Below are positions 21,217-25,963 of a stretch of 33,260 nt of DNA, in pieces. Origin of the DNA: a virus. Numbering within the stretch: the first letter of the stretch is position 1; the number at the start of each line of letters is the position of its first letter. The stretch is from IMG/VR virus record IMGVR_UViG_3300025132_000015, positions 1 through 33,260 of that record. One strand, written 5' to 3'. Under the pieces are notes generated by a model that was not told the DNA's origin, did not search any database, and saw only the letters and a program-made list of their open reading frames with translations. The translations under genes were made by a program, and so were the position numbers.

Positions 21217-22125
21217 TCAAGCCACTTCCTTTTTAGCGCTAGGTTGTAAGTTATTTAAAAACTCTATAGCTTGACTGCTTTTACTGAAAGCTGAAAATAT
21301 TGCTCTAGGATTATTTTTAATAACCTCTTTCCAATGATTGAGATATTTAGCGTGGTCAGGTCGAGGACTTTTGCTAACACCTAGCATAACACATAACATA
21401 GCTGAACCAGTTTCAGCTACTAACTCTTCCATAGCATATTCTTTAGAGCCGAATGATTTACTAAAATCTCTTTTACATCTATCTTTATGCCCAGTCCAAT
21501 GAACCAGCTCGTGCAATAAAGTGCTATAATAATTTTCACTTGCCTTTGCAGTTTTCGTATCTTTGAACTGCGCTTTACTAGGCATATTAATATAATCTAA
21601 TACAGGAGAATAACAGGCTCGGTTACCACCTATTTGAATTACAGCTTTAGTATTTGCAATATACTGCTCGGCACGTTTGACGCTTTTAACTTTGTTGATT
21701 ATTTTTTTAGGCTTTGGTAATTTTATACCATCAACTTGCGCTACATTAAATACATTCCATACTTTCAAAAACCAGCGTGATTTAATTTCAGGGTCGCCAT
21801 TTTCATCTACATTATTTTTATCTTCAAACCTTTTAAGCTCCCAATAAAATACTCTGGTAGACTTTTCACCTTTTTTTACAGTAGCGCCTAATTTACTCCA
21901 CTGCTTATAGGTCGCCCAAGCATTATTCGTGTAGCCTTTATAGTGACACGCTAATGATAGCCATAAAATATTGAACCCAGTATATTCTTTTTGGGTAGCG
22001 TGATTTATAGGATAGCTCTTAGCCATCATATCACGCCAAGGTTTATCCCAATCGCTACCATATTTTTCCATATCAGCAAGTATGGTAGCAGAAACTTCTT
22101 TTATTATATTAGTAGTATATGACAT
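21217..22125 (-). CDS. ArdC-like antirestriction protein (ssDNA-binding plus zincin domain)
   Basis: A 302-residue protein. Residues 1-135 match the ArdC/TraC N-terminal ssDNA-binding domain (P-W-R-D, N-x-x-T-Q-K-E-Y-T-G-F-N, T-Y-K-Q-W-S-K-L-G-A-T-V-K-K-G-E-K-S-T-R-V). Residues 150-300 are a zinc metallopeptidase-like domain with H205-E-L-V-H209 (in L-L-H-E-L-V-H-W-T-G-H) and a downstream acidic E-E-L-V-A-E at 233-238. Members protect incoming DNA against restriction. It is third in the first early transcript, fitting a role at genome entry, and the peptidase residues look intact. Confidence 0.87.
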   Translation of the reverse strand: MSYTTNIIKEVSATILADMEKYGSDWDKPWRDMMAKSYPINHATQKEYTGFNILWLSLACHYKGYTNNAWATYKQWSKLGATVKKGEKSTRVFYWELKRFEDKNNVDENGDPEIKSRWFLKVWNVFNVAQVDGIKLPKPKKIINKVKSVKRAEQYIANTKAVIQIGGNRACYSPVLDYINMPSKAQFKDTKTAKASENYYSTLLHELVHWTGHKDRCKRDFSKSFGSKEYAMEELVAETGSAMLCVMLGVSKSPRPDHAKYLNHWKEVIKNNPRAIFSAFSKSSQAIEFLNNLQPSAKKEVA

Positions 22126-22516: not shown

Positions 22517-22550
22517 TTATTTAGCTCCTTTTTAATTTATAACTAATGAT

Positions 22551-22598
22551 ATCATATTTATTTACTATTAGTAAAGAACTATTTGTTACTATTAGTAA
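22551..22598 (-). promoter_or_regulatory. Main leftward early promoter with two operator palindromes
   Basis: TATGAT at 22556-22551 (minus strand) lies 35 bases before ATG 22516. TTTACTATTAGTAAA (22561-22575, perfect palindrome) ends 4 bp upstream of it and a second core TTACTATTAGTAA (22586-22598) lies 24 bp further, centre to centre. This is the start of the whole early block. Location over the -35/spacer region predicts repression by a dimeric protein. Confidence 0.68.
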
Positions 22599-22874
22599 AG
22601 TTTATTGCTATAGCTAAAAAGGGTAATAATCCCTAGGAAAATAGCGCTGCGACAGGCTGCGGTCATTACATAAGCTATAAATGGTATATACTAGGCATAT
22701 AAACAACTATATACTAATGCTCTAATAATTGTTTGAATATTAAATATTAGTATTGAATTAACAAACATAGGGTTTTGCTATACCTTTGTCTATCATCTGC
22801 TATGCGTTTGTCATAGCCTTTGCTATATCAATATTAAAGTTAAAGTTAAAGAATATATATTAGGAAGGTAAGCT
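22599..22874. promoter_or_regulatory. Divergent non-coding region, left half
   Basis: 276 bases without a convincing gene. It contains a small hairpin AGGG-TAATAAT-CCCT near 22620, a GC-richer patch with two GCTGCG words (22647-22662), two copies of TATATACTA (22685-22693, 22708-22716), the hairpin GCTATG-7-CATAGC (22799-22817) flanked by two TTTGCTATA words (22774-22782, 22819-22827), and GTTAAA tandem repeats at 22848-22859. The mix of short repeats and hairpins is typical of a control region or origin; no tRNA seen. Confidence 0.5.
22808..22837 (+). promoter_or_regulatory. Possible rightward promoter for the 46-residue ORF
   Basis: TTGTCA (22808-22813) and TATTAA (22832-22837) are 18 bases apart and match the sigma-70 boxes at 5 and 4 of 6 positions; the ATG of a small ORF is 38 bases downstream. 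The AT-rich surroundings make chance matches common, so this is only a candidate. Confidence 0.3.
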
Positions 22875-23015
22875 ATGAAGCTAATTAGTTTGATAGGCGC
22901 TTATTTAAGGATAGGAGTGCTGGAAAGCAAAATCGCCTATTTCTACCCCAACAAAAAAGGGAGAACAAAAATAGCTCAAATGAGGTACGAAACCAAACCA
23001 TCAGTTACAGGCTAG
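22875..23015 (+). CDS. Short rightward ORF in the control region
   Basis: Forty-six codons from ATG 22875 to TAG 23013-23015, preceded by AGGAAGG six to seven bases upstream. The product begins with a hydrophobic helix (M-K-L-I-S-L-I-G-A-Y-L-R-I-G-V-L) and becomes basic (N-K-K-G-R-T-K-I-A-Q-M-R-Y). The good ribosome site in a region otherwise without genes supports translation. No family recognised. Being alone between the divergent blocks, it could be a regulator or lysis-timing peptide. Confidence 0.5.
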   Translation: MKLISLIGAYLRIGVLESKIAYFYPNKKGRTKIAQMRYETKPSVTG

Positions 23016-23283
23016 GGTAAGCCCACACAATAACAAAGGCATACTTATATACTAATGTACCTTAATGTGATTGTATGACGCTTAAAACTAATTAGAATTG
23101 CTTATGGTGATATATAAAGCTATAAGGGGACCCTTGCCAAAAAAAGTTTTTTAGATTGCGATGCCAGGACGGCTTGGGGGGTTAGGTAGGGTTATATACT
23201 AAACCACTATTAACCATAACAATAATTTGACAACTATATTATTTTTTGATAAATAAAAAAGCAACTAACCATCTAGGAGAGAT
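23016..23283. promoter_or_regulatory. Non-coding region before the virion block (possible packaging site)
   Basis: 268 bases with no convincing gene. It carries two more TATATACTA words (23046-23054, 23193-23201), the GC-rich ends GGGGACCCTTGCC (23126-23138) and a G-run patch at 23160-23191 that is far above the local GC level, separated by AAAAAAA-G-TTTTTT. It lies just upstream of the ParB-like and terminase genes. Candidate cos or pac site, or origin; nothing here proves which. Confidence 0.4.
23227..23255 (+). promoter_or_regulatory. Candidate late promoter before the ParB-like gene
   Basis: A perfect TTGACA (23227-23232) is followed after 17 bases by TAAATA (23250-23255); the ATG of the ParB-like gene is 29 bases further with AGGAGAG as ribosome site. 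No other plausible start for the long rightward block was noticed nearby. The -10 match is weak, so host or phage activators may be needed. Confidence 0.45.
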
Positions 23284-23916
23284 ATGAAAATAGAATTAGT
23301 AAATCCTGATACTCTTATAAACTATGATAAGAACCCTCGTAAGAATATACACGCTGTATCTAAAATAAAGGATAGCATAAAAGAGTTTGGTTTTAGGCAA
23401 CCTATAGTAGTAGATGAAAATAACATAATACTCGTAGGGCATACTAGATTGCTTGCAGCTAAAGAGCTTGGCTTAAAAAAAGTGCCTATTCATAAGGCGC
23501 TAGGCTTAACTGACGCACAAAAAAAGGCATATCGTATTATGGATAATAAATCAGCAGAATATGCCGACTGGGATAAAAATCTTTTAAAAAGCGAATTATT
23601 AGATTTAGCTGACGCTGATTTTGATATGAACCTGACAGGTTTTAGCCTTGAGGATATAAATAAGCTCACTACAGACGAACTATTAAACTTTGCTAGTGAT
23701 AATATAGAAGAAGATATGCTTGAGGATTCAGTAACCAATTTTGCGCCCAGCAACGTAAAATTAGTACAATTATTTTATGATACTGATACGGAACTGCTTT
23801 TTAGGGAAATGTGTACGATAATACAAGAACACTATAAATTAGATAATTTATCTGATGTAGTTTATAAAGTAATTGAAGATGAATACAAAGTTATTAAAAG
23901 TAAAAGCGCAAACTGA
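23284..23916 (+). CDS. ParB-like domain protein of the DNA-modification cassette
   Basis: A 210-residue protein. Residues 1-100 are a ParB/Sulfiredoxin-fold domain: N-P-D-T-L-I-N-Y-D-K-N-P-R, K-I-K-D-S-I-K-E-F-G-F-R-Q-P-I-V-V-D, G-H-T-R-L-L-A-A-K-E-L-G (the G-x-x-R-x-x-A nucleotide-binding box), then R-I-M-D-N-K-S-A-E. Related domains in phages act as CTPase clamps or nucleases and are known neighbours of TET/JBP genes. The C-terminal half is helical and unassigned. First gene of the rightward block; it overlaps the oxygenase start by 38 bases. Confidence 0.85.
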   Translation: MKIELVNPDTLINYDKNPRKNIHAVSKIKDSIKEFGFRQPIVVDENNIILVGHTRLLAAKELGLKKVPIHKALGLTDAQKKAYRIMDNKSAEYADWDKNLLKSELLDLADADFDMNLTGFSLEDINKLTTDELLNFASDNIEEDMLEDSVTNFAPSNVKLVQLFYDTDTELLFREMCTIIQEHYKLDNLSDVVYKVIEDEYKVIKSKSAN

Positions 23917-24814
23917 TTATAAATCTTTTGCTAAAAGGTCAGGCACTTTTGTAAAAGAAAGTGAAATACACACAATTATAAATTATAATTGTGACGCTTA
24001 TGATGAACAAGGCGAACCCTTATTTTTTTTTAGAAAAAATGTAATCCCTGCTAACTTATGCAAAACTGCATATTATGCTTTACGAACAGCAGCTACAGGA
24101 ACAAATAATAGAGGAGACGCAGCTGGTTTTCACCACCCACTAGAAAATACTACTATCAAAGGGCAAAGGCTTGAAAGTGGTAAACCTCAAAAAAGATTTA
24201 CAGTAGTTAAAAAAGATGGAACGCTTGATAGCGTAGCAAGAGCGCAACACGTTAAGAGTGGAATCATAGGTTACTTCGATAGAAATGTAAGATTTCCATA
24301 TTGCAGACAAACTGCTTGGACAGAAAAAAATTTTCCGAATTATATCAAAAGTAAAAAATATATACAAGCTATTTCTGATGAATTTAAAAAAGCATCGCCT
24401 GATAGGTACGAAAAGCAAAAAAAAGCTATAGATAGAACGCATAATGATTTTAAAATAGAAGGAACAGTTTTTACCACAGTTACAGTAAACAAAAATTTTA
24501 GAACAGCAATACACGTTGATGCTGGAGATTATGAAAAGGGATTAGGTAACATAGCAGTTTTACAAGCTGGAGAATATAAAGGAGGTGAAACTTGTTTACC
24601 AAGATATGGCATAGGCTTTGATGTAAGAAATACTGACGTATGCTTTTTCAATGTTCACGAATGGCACGGCAATTTACCTATAGTAGCAAAAAAACCATAC
24701 GAAAGAATAAGTCTAGTTTGTTACTATAGAAAAAATATGGATAAATGTGGAAGCAGTAAAGAGGAACTAGAGATAGTAAAAAATAGAAAAAATTTTAAAG
24801 GGTTAAATGTATAA
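23879..24814 (+). CDS. TET/JBP-type 2-oxoglutarate/Fe(II) DNA base oxygenase
   Basis: A 311-residue protein from ATG 23879 (TTG 23873 is less likely). The family block G-Y-F-D-R...C-R-Q-T-A-W-T lies at 131-148, followed by the core: N204, the iron ligands H212-V-D214, G-E-Y-K-G-G-E-T-C-L-P at 231-241, the distal ligand H263 in E-W-H-G-N and the 2-oxoglutarate Arg276 in Y-E-R-I-S-L-V. TET/JBP enzymes hydroxylate the 5-methyl group of 5mC or thymine in DNA. All metal ligands are present. The next gene, overlapping by 8 bases, is a matching glycosyltransferase. Which base is used here cannot be read from sequence. Confidence 0.85.
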   Translation: MNTKLLKVKAQTDYKSFAKRSGTFVKESEIHTIINYNCDAYDEQGEPLFFFRKNVIPANLCKTAYYALRTAATGTNNRGDAAGFHHPLENTTIKGQRLESGKPQKRFTVVKKDGTLDSVARAQHVKSGIIGYFDRNVRFPYCRQTAWTEKNFPNYIKSKKYIQAISDEFKKASPDRYEKQKKAIDRTHNDFKIEGTVFTTVTVNKNFRTAIHVDAGDYEKGLGNIAVLQAGEYKGGETCLPRYGIGFDVRNTDVCFFNVHEWHGNLPIVAKKPYERISLVCYYRKNMDKCGSSKEELEIVKNRKNFKGLNV

Positions 24815-25580
24815 ATTAATAATACCAACCTATAAAAGAGCTGAAACTCTTAAAAATAAAACAATGGCATATTTAAAAAAAACAAACATCAACGCTAAAA
24901 ATATTTTTATATATGTAGCCAATAAAGAAGAAAAAGAACTATATGAAAACACAATAGATAAAAATAGTTATGCAGAAATAATTATAGGCAAAAGAGGGTT
25001 ACCACAACAAAGGAACTTTATACAAAAAACACATAAGATAGGCGAAAATTTATTTATGCTAGATGATGATTTAAAATCTATAAAAATGAAAGTCAATGAT
25101 AAAGTATTAACAGAAATAAATGATTTAGATAGTTTTATAAATTTTGCTTTTGATATTTGCAATAAAAATAAAACTAGATATTTTGGCACATACCCAGTTG
25201 ATAATCCTTATTTTATGAAAAATGTAATAACTTTTGATTTGAGATATATAGTTGCTAACATAAGTGGTACTGTAAATAATCACGATATATTTAGAGATGA
25301 GGGTGAAGAATGTGAAGCTAGGAAAAATTTTACAGCAGGAAAAGAAAGCCACGAAATGACAATCAAATATTTTTTAGCAGATAAAAGCATAGCAAGATTT
25401 AATTATATAGCGCCCACAAGCACTTACTGGGGAGGTGAAGGTGGTCATCAAGTTTCCAGAAACATAGAAGGAGAAAAAGCAGCTACTGAATGGTTGTATA
25501 AAAAATACCCACAATACTTCAAAAAAGTTTTAAGAAAAAATGGTATGTGGGATTTAGTAATTAAAAGGAAAAAAAAATGA
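24807..25580 (+). CDS. TET-associated glycosyltransferase (TAGT-like)
   Basis: A 257-residue GT-A-type glycosyltransferase. The opening Y-K-L-I-I-P-T-Y-K-R-A-E-T-L is the nucleotide-sugar binding strand, K-R-G-L-P-Q-Q-R-N at 62-70 the linker helix and L-D-D-D88-L the metal-binding acidic motif; W-G-G-E-G-G-H lies in the acceptor side. This pattern is that of transferases coupled to phage TET/JBP enzymes, which add sugars to hydroxymethylated bases. It overlaps the oxygenase gene by 8 bases and terminase by 4, so the three are co-translated. Sugar donor unknown. Confidence 0.82.
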   Translation: MYKLIIPTYKRAETLKNKTMAYLKKTNINAKNIFIYVANKEEKELYENTIDKNSYAEIIIGKRGLPQQRNFIQKTHKIGENLFMLDDDLKSIKMKVNDKVLTEINDLDSFINFAFDICNKNKTRYFGTYPVDNPYFMKNVITFDLRYIVANISGTVNNHDIFRDEGEECEARKNFTAGKESHEMTIKYFLADKSIARFNYIAPTSTYWGGEGGHQVSRNIEGEKAATEWLYKKYPQYFKKVLRKNGMWDLVIKRKKK

Positions 25581-25963
25581 AAGAAGCTGGAAGACCTAAT
25601 TTTGAACCAACACCAGAAATGGAAAGGATATGTTCACTCGGAGTAGCTTTTGGTTTGACACACGAACAAATAGCAAAGCTAGTAGGTTGCAGTCCGAAAA
25701 CATTAAGGAAACATTTTCAAAACGCATTAGAAACAGGTAAAGAAAAATTGACAATGGCAATAGGAAGCCAACTATATAAAAAAGCTATGAAAGGCGATAC
25801 GATTTCAGCAATATTTTTAGCAAAAACGAAAGCTGGTTTTACAGAAAAAGTTGAACACGAAGGACTGCCTAACAATATTTCAGTGAGCTTTAATTTAGAA
25901 CCAGATAAAAAAGTAGTTGACGCAGAAATAATAAACGATAAGATAACTCACAAAAAGGAGTGA
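25577..25963 (+). CDS. Terminase small subunit
   Basis: A 128-residue protein starting G-R-P-N-F-E-P-T and containing a helix-turn-helix (H-E-Q-I-A-K-L-V-G-C-S-P-K-T-L-R-K-H-F at about 33-51) and a helical oligomerisation region (M-A-I-G-S-Q-L-Y-K-K-A-M-K-G-D). This is the usual form of small terminase in such phages: it recognises the packaging site and recruits the large subunit. The large subunit follows four small genes later. Its start overlaps the glycosyltransferase stop (ATGA). Confidence 0.8.
   Translation: MKEAGRPNFEPTPEMERICSLGVAFGLTHEQIAKLVGCSPKTLRKHFQNALETGKEKLTMAIGSQLYKKAMKGDTISAIFLAKTKAGFTEKVEHEGLPNNISVSFNLEPDKKVVDAEIINDKITHKKE

Follow-up and report, generated by a model that had tools for sequence, protein, structure and literature searches.

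A ParB–TET/JBP–glycosyltransferase operon in a phage genome and its candidate role in thymine modification

Beside the TET/JBP oxygenase genes of phages, ParB and C5-methylase are mutually exclusive in our sample. In the window, by which we mean the whole 33,260-bp stretch analysed here, a closed IMG/VR genome of a small marine phage with its first 78 bp repeated exactly at its end, the oxygenase is paired with ParB and both are followed by a TET-associated glycosyltransferase (TAGT), the three genes forming an operon on the + strand in which each overlaps the next (Table 1). With a probability of roughly 60%, we propose that the ParB-assisted oxygenase hydroxylates thymine in DNA and that TAGT glycosylates the product, giving a base-J-like base.

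Table 1. Genes and sequence motifs of the modification operon and the gene adjoining it
Feature	Position	Strand	Basis
ParB_N-domain protein, 210 aa	23284..23916	+	PF02195 30 bits; PHROG 620 E 2.8e-49
TET/JBP 2-oxoglutarate/Fe(II) oxygenase, 311 aa	23879..24814	+	PF12851 E 4.6e-23; 38-bp overlap with ParB gene
Codons of metal ligands H212 and D214 (HVD)	24512..24520	+	Invariant in all sampled phage TETs except one X
Codon of third metal ligand H263 (WHGN)	24665..24667	+	Invariant; aligns with the TET2 ELHATTP histidine
R276 (2OG-binding Arg) to R284 (position of TET2 FYQH His)	24704..24730	+	Alignment
TAGT, 257 aa, GT-A fold (predicted)	24807..25580	+	PF20691 E 3.6e-9
DDD (D86-D88), DxD-type nucleotide-sugar/metal motif of TAGT	25062..25070	+	Sequence conservation
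HTH/small-terminase-like protein	25577..25963	+	PHROG 12540 and 309

The operon and its three proteins

The three overlapping genes named in the preliminary description of this DNA are all present, and each of the encoded proteins scores above its curated Pfam cut-off. In the oxygenase, Tet_JBP (81.7 bits, cut-off 34.9) is the sole domain detected. Alignment with relatives identifies ATG 23879 as the best start, and the mechanically called TTG 23873 was rejected on the same ground. The complete H-V-D, H, R pattern described earlier holds: the 2OG/Fe(II) residues H212, D214, H263 and R276 are conserved in the clade and align with those of TET2. H260 had been considered as the distal metal histidine and was rejected, the true ligand being the WHGN histidine three residues later. 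Fold agreement of an oxygenase model had been named beforehand as a point on which the description might fall, and it withstood this comparison. The AlphaFold model (pLDDT 92.8, pTM 0.90) has NgTet1 in complex with 5mC DNA (4lt5) as its best PDB match, followed by CMD1, TET2 and CcTet, and the protein is predicted to possess the double-stranded beta-helix fold of TET/NgTet1. The PHROG label 'queuine tRNA-ribosyltransferase' (phrog_6059) attached to the window oxygenase is annotation noise. The TET/JBP proteins of phages HTVC112P (gp18), DLP6, Cr30 and S-CBWM1 match the oxygenase family but bear the label 'SNF2 DNA repair protein', a propagated misannotation.

The third gene encodes a predicted TAGT, as judged from the profile match (37.3 bits, cut-off 27.5), the DxD-type motif and the modelled GT-A fold. 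The model has a pLDDT of 85.8, with TarP, RmlT, TarS and other GT-A sugar transferases as its top PDB matches, and D86-D88 are conserved over 45 TAGT relatives, with D86 and D87 invariant in a 28-row alignment.

In the ParB protein, ParB_N is the only domain above its cut-off (26.3 bits) and no HTH domain was detected; a ParA partner was not found among the window genes scanned with PHROGs and/or Pfam. Canonical chromosome and plasmid ParB proteins, in contrast, possess HTH and dimerisation domains and act with ParA, and the window protein is thus not one of them. Its phosphate motif (P-motif) GHTR (G52-H53-T54-R55) is conserved across 82 relatives, and its C-terminal part is conserved among ParB-TET loci. 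It is ~40-55% identical to ParB domains of phages and prophages that carry the annotation ParB protein or DNA methylase, and in ParB-methylase fusions its alignment covers the ParB portion (positions 33-177 of 633 in phrog_498) and not the methylase. According to a 2025 survey, phage ParB-fold domains occur fused to N6/N4 methylases, and NTP binding by the ParB fold requires the P-motif arginine (PMC12704722).

The large terminase gene is located ~0.7 kb beyond the HTH/small-terminase-like gene that follows the operon. TerL of the window is closest to that of pelagiphages, the portal and capsid proteins are closest to those of Mx8-like and rhizobial phages, and a DNA-level search with the window gave no near match. 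About 1 kb from the operon, an ArdC-type anti-restriction protein (ArdcN plus zincin metallopeptidase) is encoded on the opposite strand (21217-22125, -) and may provide a second counter-restriction function. Some 770 bp without any ORF of at least 50 aa (22517-23283) lie between the divergent early (-) and modification/structural (+) blocks and are likely a control region.

ParB and C5-methylase in phage TET loci

The preliminary description had seen neither a methyltransferase nor a nucleotide-level hydroxymethylase and had proposed a profile search for C5-methylases. Both absences are borne out: neither the C5-methylase family PF00145 nor the thymidylate-synthase/hydroxymethylase family PF00303 has a match in the whole window genome, and no methyltransferase family was matched among the window ORFs scanned with PHROGs and/or Pfam, several ORFs being without any family assignment.

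The wider picture comes from viral contigs, many of them fragments, in which genes were counted with HMMs built for this analysis together with Pfam. A scan with the window oxygenase yielded 53 loci; ParB is situated directly upstream of TET in 49 of these, the remaining four end near the TET start, and none contains a C5-methylase. A wider scan gave a ParB-TET set of 86 distinct oxygenases from IMG/VR, again with C5-methylase in 0/86. ParB and TET are encoded in overlapping reading frames wherever a locus has both genes (119 of 119, duplicates included). Starting from Methylophilales phage Melnitz, the TET of which is 23% identical, we found a second TET clade of 71 loci; 64 of these have a C5-methylase gene immediately before TET, and none has ParB. 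A phage C5-methylase had been presented in the preliminary description as the normal partner of such oxygenases; this is true of the second clade but not of the clade of the window, in which ParB occupies the slot and a C5-methylase never does.

Whole records follow the same pattern. In the window clade, 42 whole IMG/VR records gave no match to PF00145, and complete HTVC112P, P12024L, DLP6, Cr30, S-CBWM1 and C48C1 gave none either, in contrast to complete Melnitz, which matches the family. Nor does PF00145 occur in Tonitrus, MossRose and Margaery, all of them complete actinophage genomes, or in the other ParB-TET records that were searched. PF00303 has no match in the ParB-TET records, these three actinophages included; among all records searched, Cr30 alone matches. 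Tonitrus, MossRose and Margaery each encode ParB, a TET/JBP protein and a kinase, and two of them also ADDT. Their TETs are 18-23% identical to that of the window and match PF12851 with E-values of 7.7e-8 to 5.7e-4, each below the Pfam cut-off. In a maximum-likelihood tree, actinophage ParB-TETs, C5-methylase TETs and marine ParB-TETs separate, with the DLP6/Cr30 types as sisters of the marine group. ParB pairing therefore occurs in two deep lineages, the exact joining of which is unsure because of long branches.

The decoration slot and the substrate base

Downstream of TET, the ParB-TET loci differ in gene content. Among the 86 distinct loci, this slot holds TAGT alone in 24, a set of GATase, GNAT, ADDT and kinase in 20, an FkbM methyltransferase in 12, an N6/N4-methylase with ADDT and kinase in five and a kinase alone in another five, the rest falling into smaller classes. 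Exchange of these decoration genes follows gene borders exactly. The window and locus L015 share 75% DNA identity across ParB-TET (23283-24812) and again from 25576, the very position at which homology to L016 and L018 restarts as well, and the window TAGT is swapped in L015 for a 246-aa gene plus ADDT and kinase. The HTH/small-terminase-like gene lies outside the modification chemistry and forms the fixed right border of the slot. At 80% identity, the TETs of the window and L015 very likely make the same product, which would then serve both sugar and amino-acid chemistry.

Of 49 no-methylase records, 26 encode the amino acid:DNA transferase ADDT (PF18724), a family known from thymidine hypermodification; none of 49 records of the C5-methylase clade, complete Melnitz included, does so (Fisher p 3e-10, shared ancestry ignored). 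P-loop kinases and TAGTs are found in both clades, also next to C5-methylase TETs, and such genes therefore do not fix the base; for the same reason, the kinase was rejected as proof of 5hmU.

Some slot genes have features of their own. The N6/N4-class methylase beside TET (L019:1880-2554, L020, L021, L026-L029, L051) carries TPCY, not D/S-PP-Y, as motif IV, conserved in 8/8 full-length copies, and the cysteine could point to an unusual methylase target. The ~246-aa gene between TET and ADDT (L015:7768-8508, L167:6927-7664) has no Pfam match and encodes a FAGVG...SDID pattern like that of Rossmann methyltransferases. The P-loop kinase of the operon is labelled 'terminase small subunit' in phrog_800 and in the RefSeq entry of Cr30 (NC_025422.1 51890-52318), which looks like a misannotation.

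A hint at the base comes from R284, the counterpart of the TET2 FYQH histidine (H1904), a base-contact residue in the TET2 structure. Arginine occupies this position in 51/51 nr90 ParB-type marine TETs in which it is present and also in the DLP6/Cr30 types, and aspartate is found in 15 of 17 C5-methylase-linked TETs. R284 is thus a candidate base-reading residue in the marine clade, where an arginine donor would suit thymine O4, just as an aspartate acceptor would suit cytosine N4. Actinophage ParB-TETs have leucine here, and HGV for HGN; arginine is therefore not a general thymine signature but a clade-level hint. The pattern of arginine without methylase has a single exception, L206 and L207, where the record with a DLP6-type TET carrying arginine at this position also has a C5-methylase ~5 kb upstream.

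Thymine, one of the options in the preliminary description, is retained as the probable substrate: the systematic absence of C5-methylase from the ParB-TET clade favours it over host-made 5mC. It is unlikely that a host methylase supplies 5mC in phage DNA, which TET would oxidise and TAGT glycosylate as 5hmC. Such a route would resemble the phages described with C5-methylase, TET and glycosyltransferases (Burke et al., 2021, as cited in PMC12730594), and it accords with the TAGTs of both clades and with an aspartate at H+5 of TET that is common to the C5 clade. A C5-methylase match over the cut-off is found in 38 of 198 genomes of the Pelagibacter family, the host family of HTVC112P, but ~80% of these genomes are without one. 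As 0/86 ParB-TET loci encode the enzyme, diverse hosts would all have to supply it, and those of ParB-TET or R-type TET phages span Pelagibacter, Gordonia, Caulobacter and Nonlabens. Furthermore, a GpC or CpG footprint exceeding the one in the TET-free pelagiphage HTVC010P is not seen. The GpC value of the window is 1.48, against medians of 1.22 in ParB-TET phages (L008-L200), where GpC is over-represented, and 0.76 in C5-methylase TET phages (L061-L131), where it is strongly under-represented. The depletion in the latter could stem from GpC methylation and deamination or from phage lineage, and the contrast between the clades lends thymine weak support, confounded by lineage as some T4-like phages without C5-methylase are also GpC-low.

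Proposed chemistry and relation to known systems

To our knowledge, no modification chemistry is known for any ParB-TET phage. In the reading that we prefer, the TET/JBP enzyme would act post-replicatively on phage DNA and hydroxylate thymine at its methyl group to 5-hydroxymethyluracil; as the 5-methyl group is part of thymine from the outset, this step can do without a methylase. ParB, with its NTP-binding-type fold, would load or target the oxygenase; we infer this as the simplest role since ParB replaces the C5-methylase that decides on the site in the 5mC-TET phages. With a nucleotide sugar as donor, TAGT would then glycosylate the hydroxymethyl group, and the resulting base-J-like sugar-oxymethyluracil would block host nucleases. 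A more specific version, the odds of which we consider even, has NTP-bound ParB placing a thymine-specific TET at chosen sites so that 5hmU arises in duplex DNA and TAGT forms the base-J-like glycoside, the first step being a common platform on which sugar, amino-acid and methyl decorations are swapped between phages.

The operon might also act on thymine mainly for low-level site marking, as a packaging start or timing switch, and not for bulk protection. We consider this quite improbable. The ParB-TET operon is indeed situated a short distance upstream of the terminase genes in the window, in HTVC112P and in the actinophages, and ParB suggests site-directed action, but the gene position may merely reflect module order and several marine loci have decoration operons whose length is characteristic of bulk protection. 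Very unlikely is an unrecognised phage C5-methylase, be it the ParB protein itself or one of the ORFs without family: no scanned window ORF matches a methylase profile, ParB corresponds to the non-methylase part of the fusions, and the TPCY methylase, which is inserted between TET and ADDT in some relatives, is confined to 7/86 ParB-TET loci and absent from the window. Action on N6-methyladenine or another host-methylated base is scarcely credible: CcTet, a fungal TET acting on N6-methyladenine, is among the structural neighbours of the TET model in its 6mA DNA-bound form, but the window is without an adenine methylase, the chemistry associated with the co-occurring ADDT and P-loop kinase is that of hydroxymethyl-pyrimidines, and we know of no precedent for a sugar on N6-hydroxymethyladenine. 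ParB would in that case be inherited from ParB-methylase fusions such as those reported in PMC12704722, in line with its closeness to domains annotated as 'DNA modification methylases'.

If the thymine reading is true, these phages, a widespread marine group together with some actinophages that can be cultured, need neither a methylase nor a pool of modified nucleotides to hydroxylate thymine directly in DNA, and viruses would have their own equivalent of base J synthesis. DNA base modification would be added to the functions of ParB-fold proteins, and sequencing chemistry could draw on new TET enzymes specific for thymine. The exclusion of ParB and C5-methylase beside TET offers a sharp, testable rule predicting the base acted on by a phage TET.

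The operon had been put forward as the strongest candidate for a new system. This does not stand, as ParB-TET pairs are common in IMG/VR and occur in the isolates HTVC112P, Tonitrus, MossRose and Margaery, and as TAGT is already a named Pfam family. In kinetoplastids (trypanosomes), base J, a glycosylated 5hmU in DNA, is made by JBP1/JBP2 and a glucosyltransferase, with a TET/JBP-type enzyme starting the synthesis; JBP1 also carries a J-binding domain. The window resembles this system in its oxygenase, its glycosyltransferase and the putative thymine substrate, and differs in that the oxygenase is a single-domain protein with a separate ParB partner in a bacterial virus. Pelagibacter phage HTVC112P (gp17-gp19), the host of which is known, shares the ParB-TET pair (45-48% identity) and the lack of C5-methylase, but its third gene encodes an FkbM-type methyltransferase instead of TAGT. 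The phage 5mC-TET pathway has in common a TET/JBP oxygenase followed by TAGT-type glycosyltransferases, along with P-loop kinases; it employs a C5-methylase, lacking in the window genome, where ParB is found here, and the TET clades are just ~23% identical. Phages M6, ViI and W-14 make 5hmdU as a nucleotide, upon which kinase and transferases act (PMC6449724). 5hmU would be the common intermediate, and the ADDT and kinase families recur in sister loci of the window, which however has no nucleotide-level hydroxymethylase, so that hydroxylation would occur on thymine within DNA. The clusters of the Rhodococcus phage Tonitrus and of Gordonia and Microbacterium phages likewise possess ParB and TET/JBP upstream of the terminase and no C5-methylase, but combine them with aGPT/ADDT and kinase in place of TAGT, and their TETs are distant from that of the window. 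For the ParB, Tet-like, aGPT (aGPT-Pplase2) and kinase genes of Tonitrus, a possible thymidine hypermodification has already been suggested (PMC11955845), which also speaks against a brand-new system. What appears to be new in comparison with all of these is how strictly and how widely ParB and C5-methylase exclude each other, the exchange of cassettes, and the combination of ParB, TET and TAGT, which predicts a base-J-like nucleotide.
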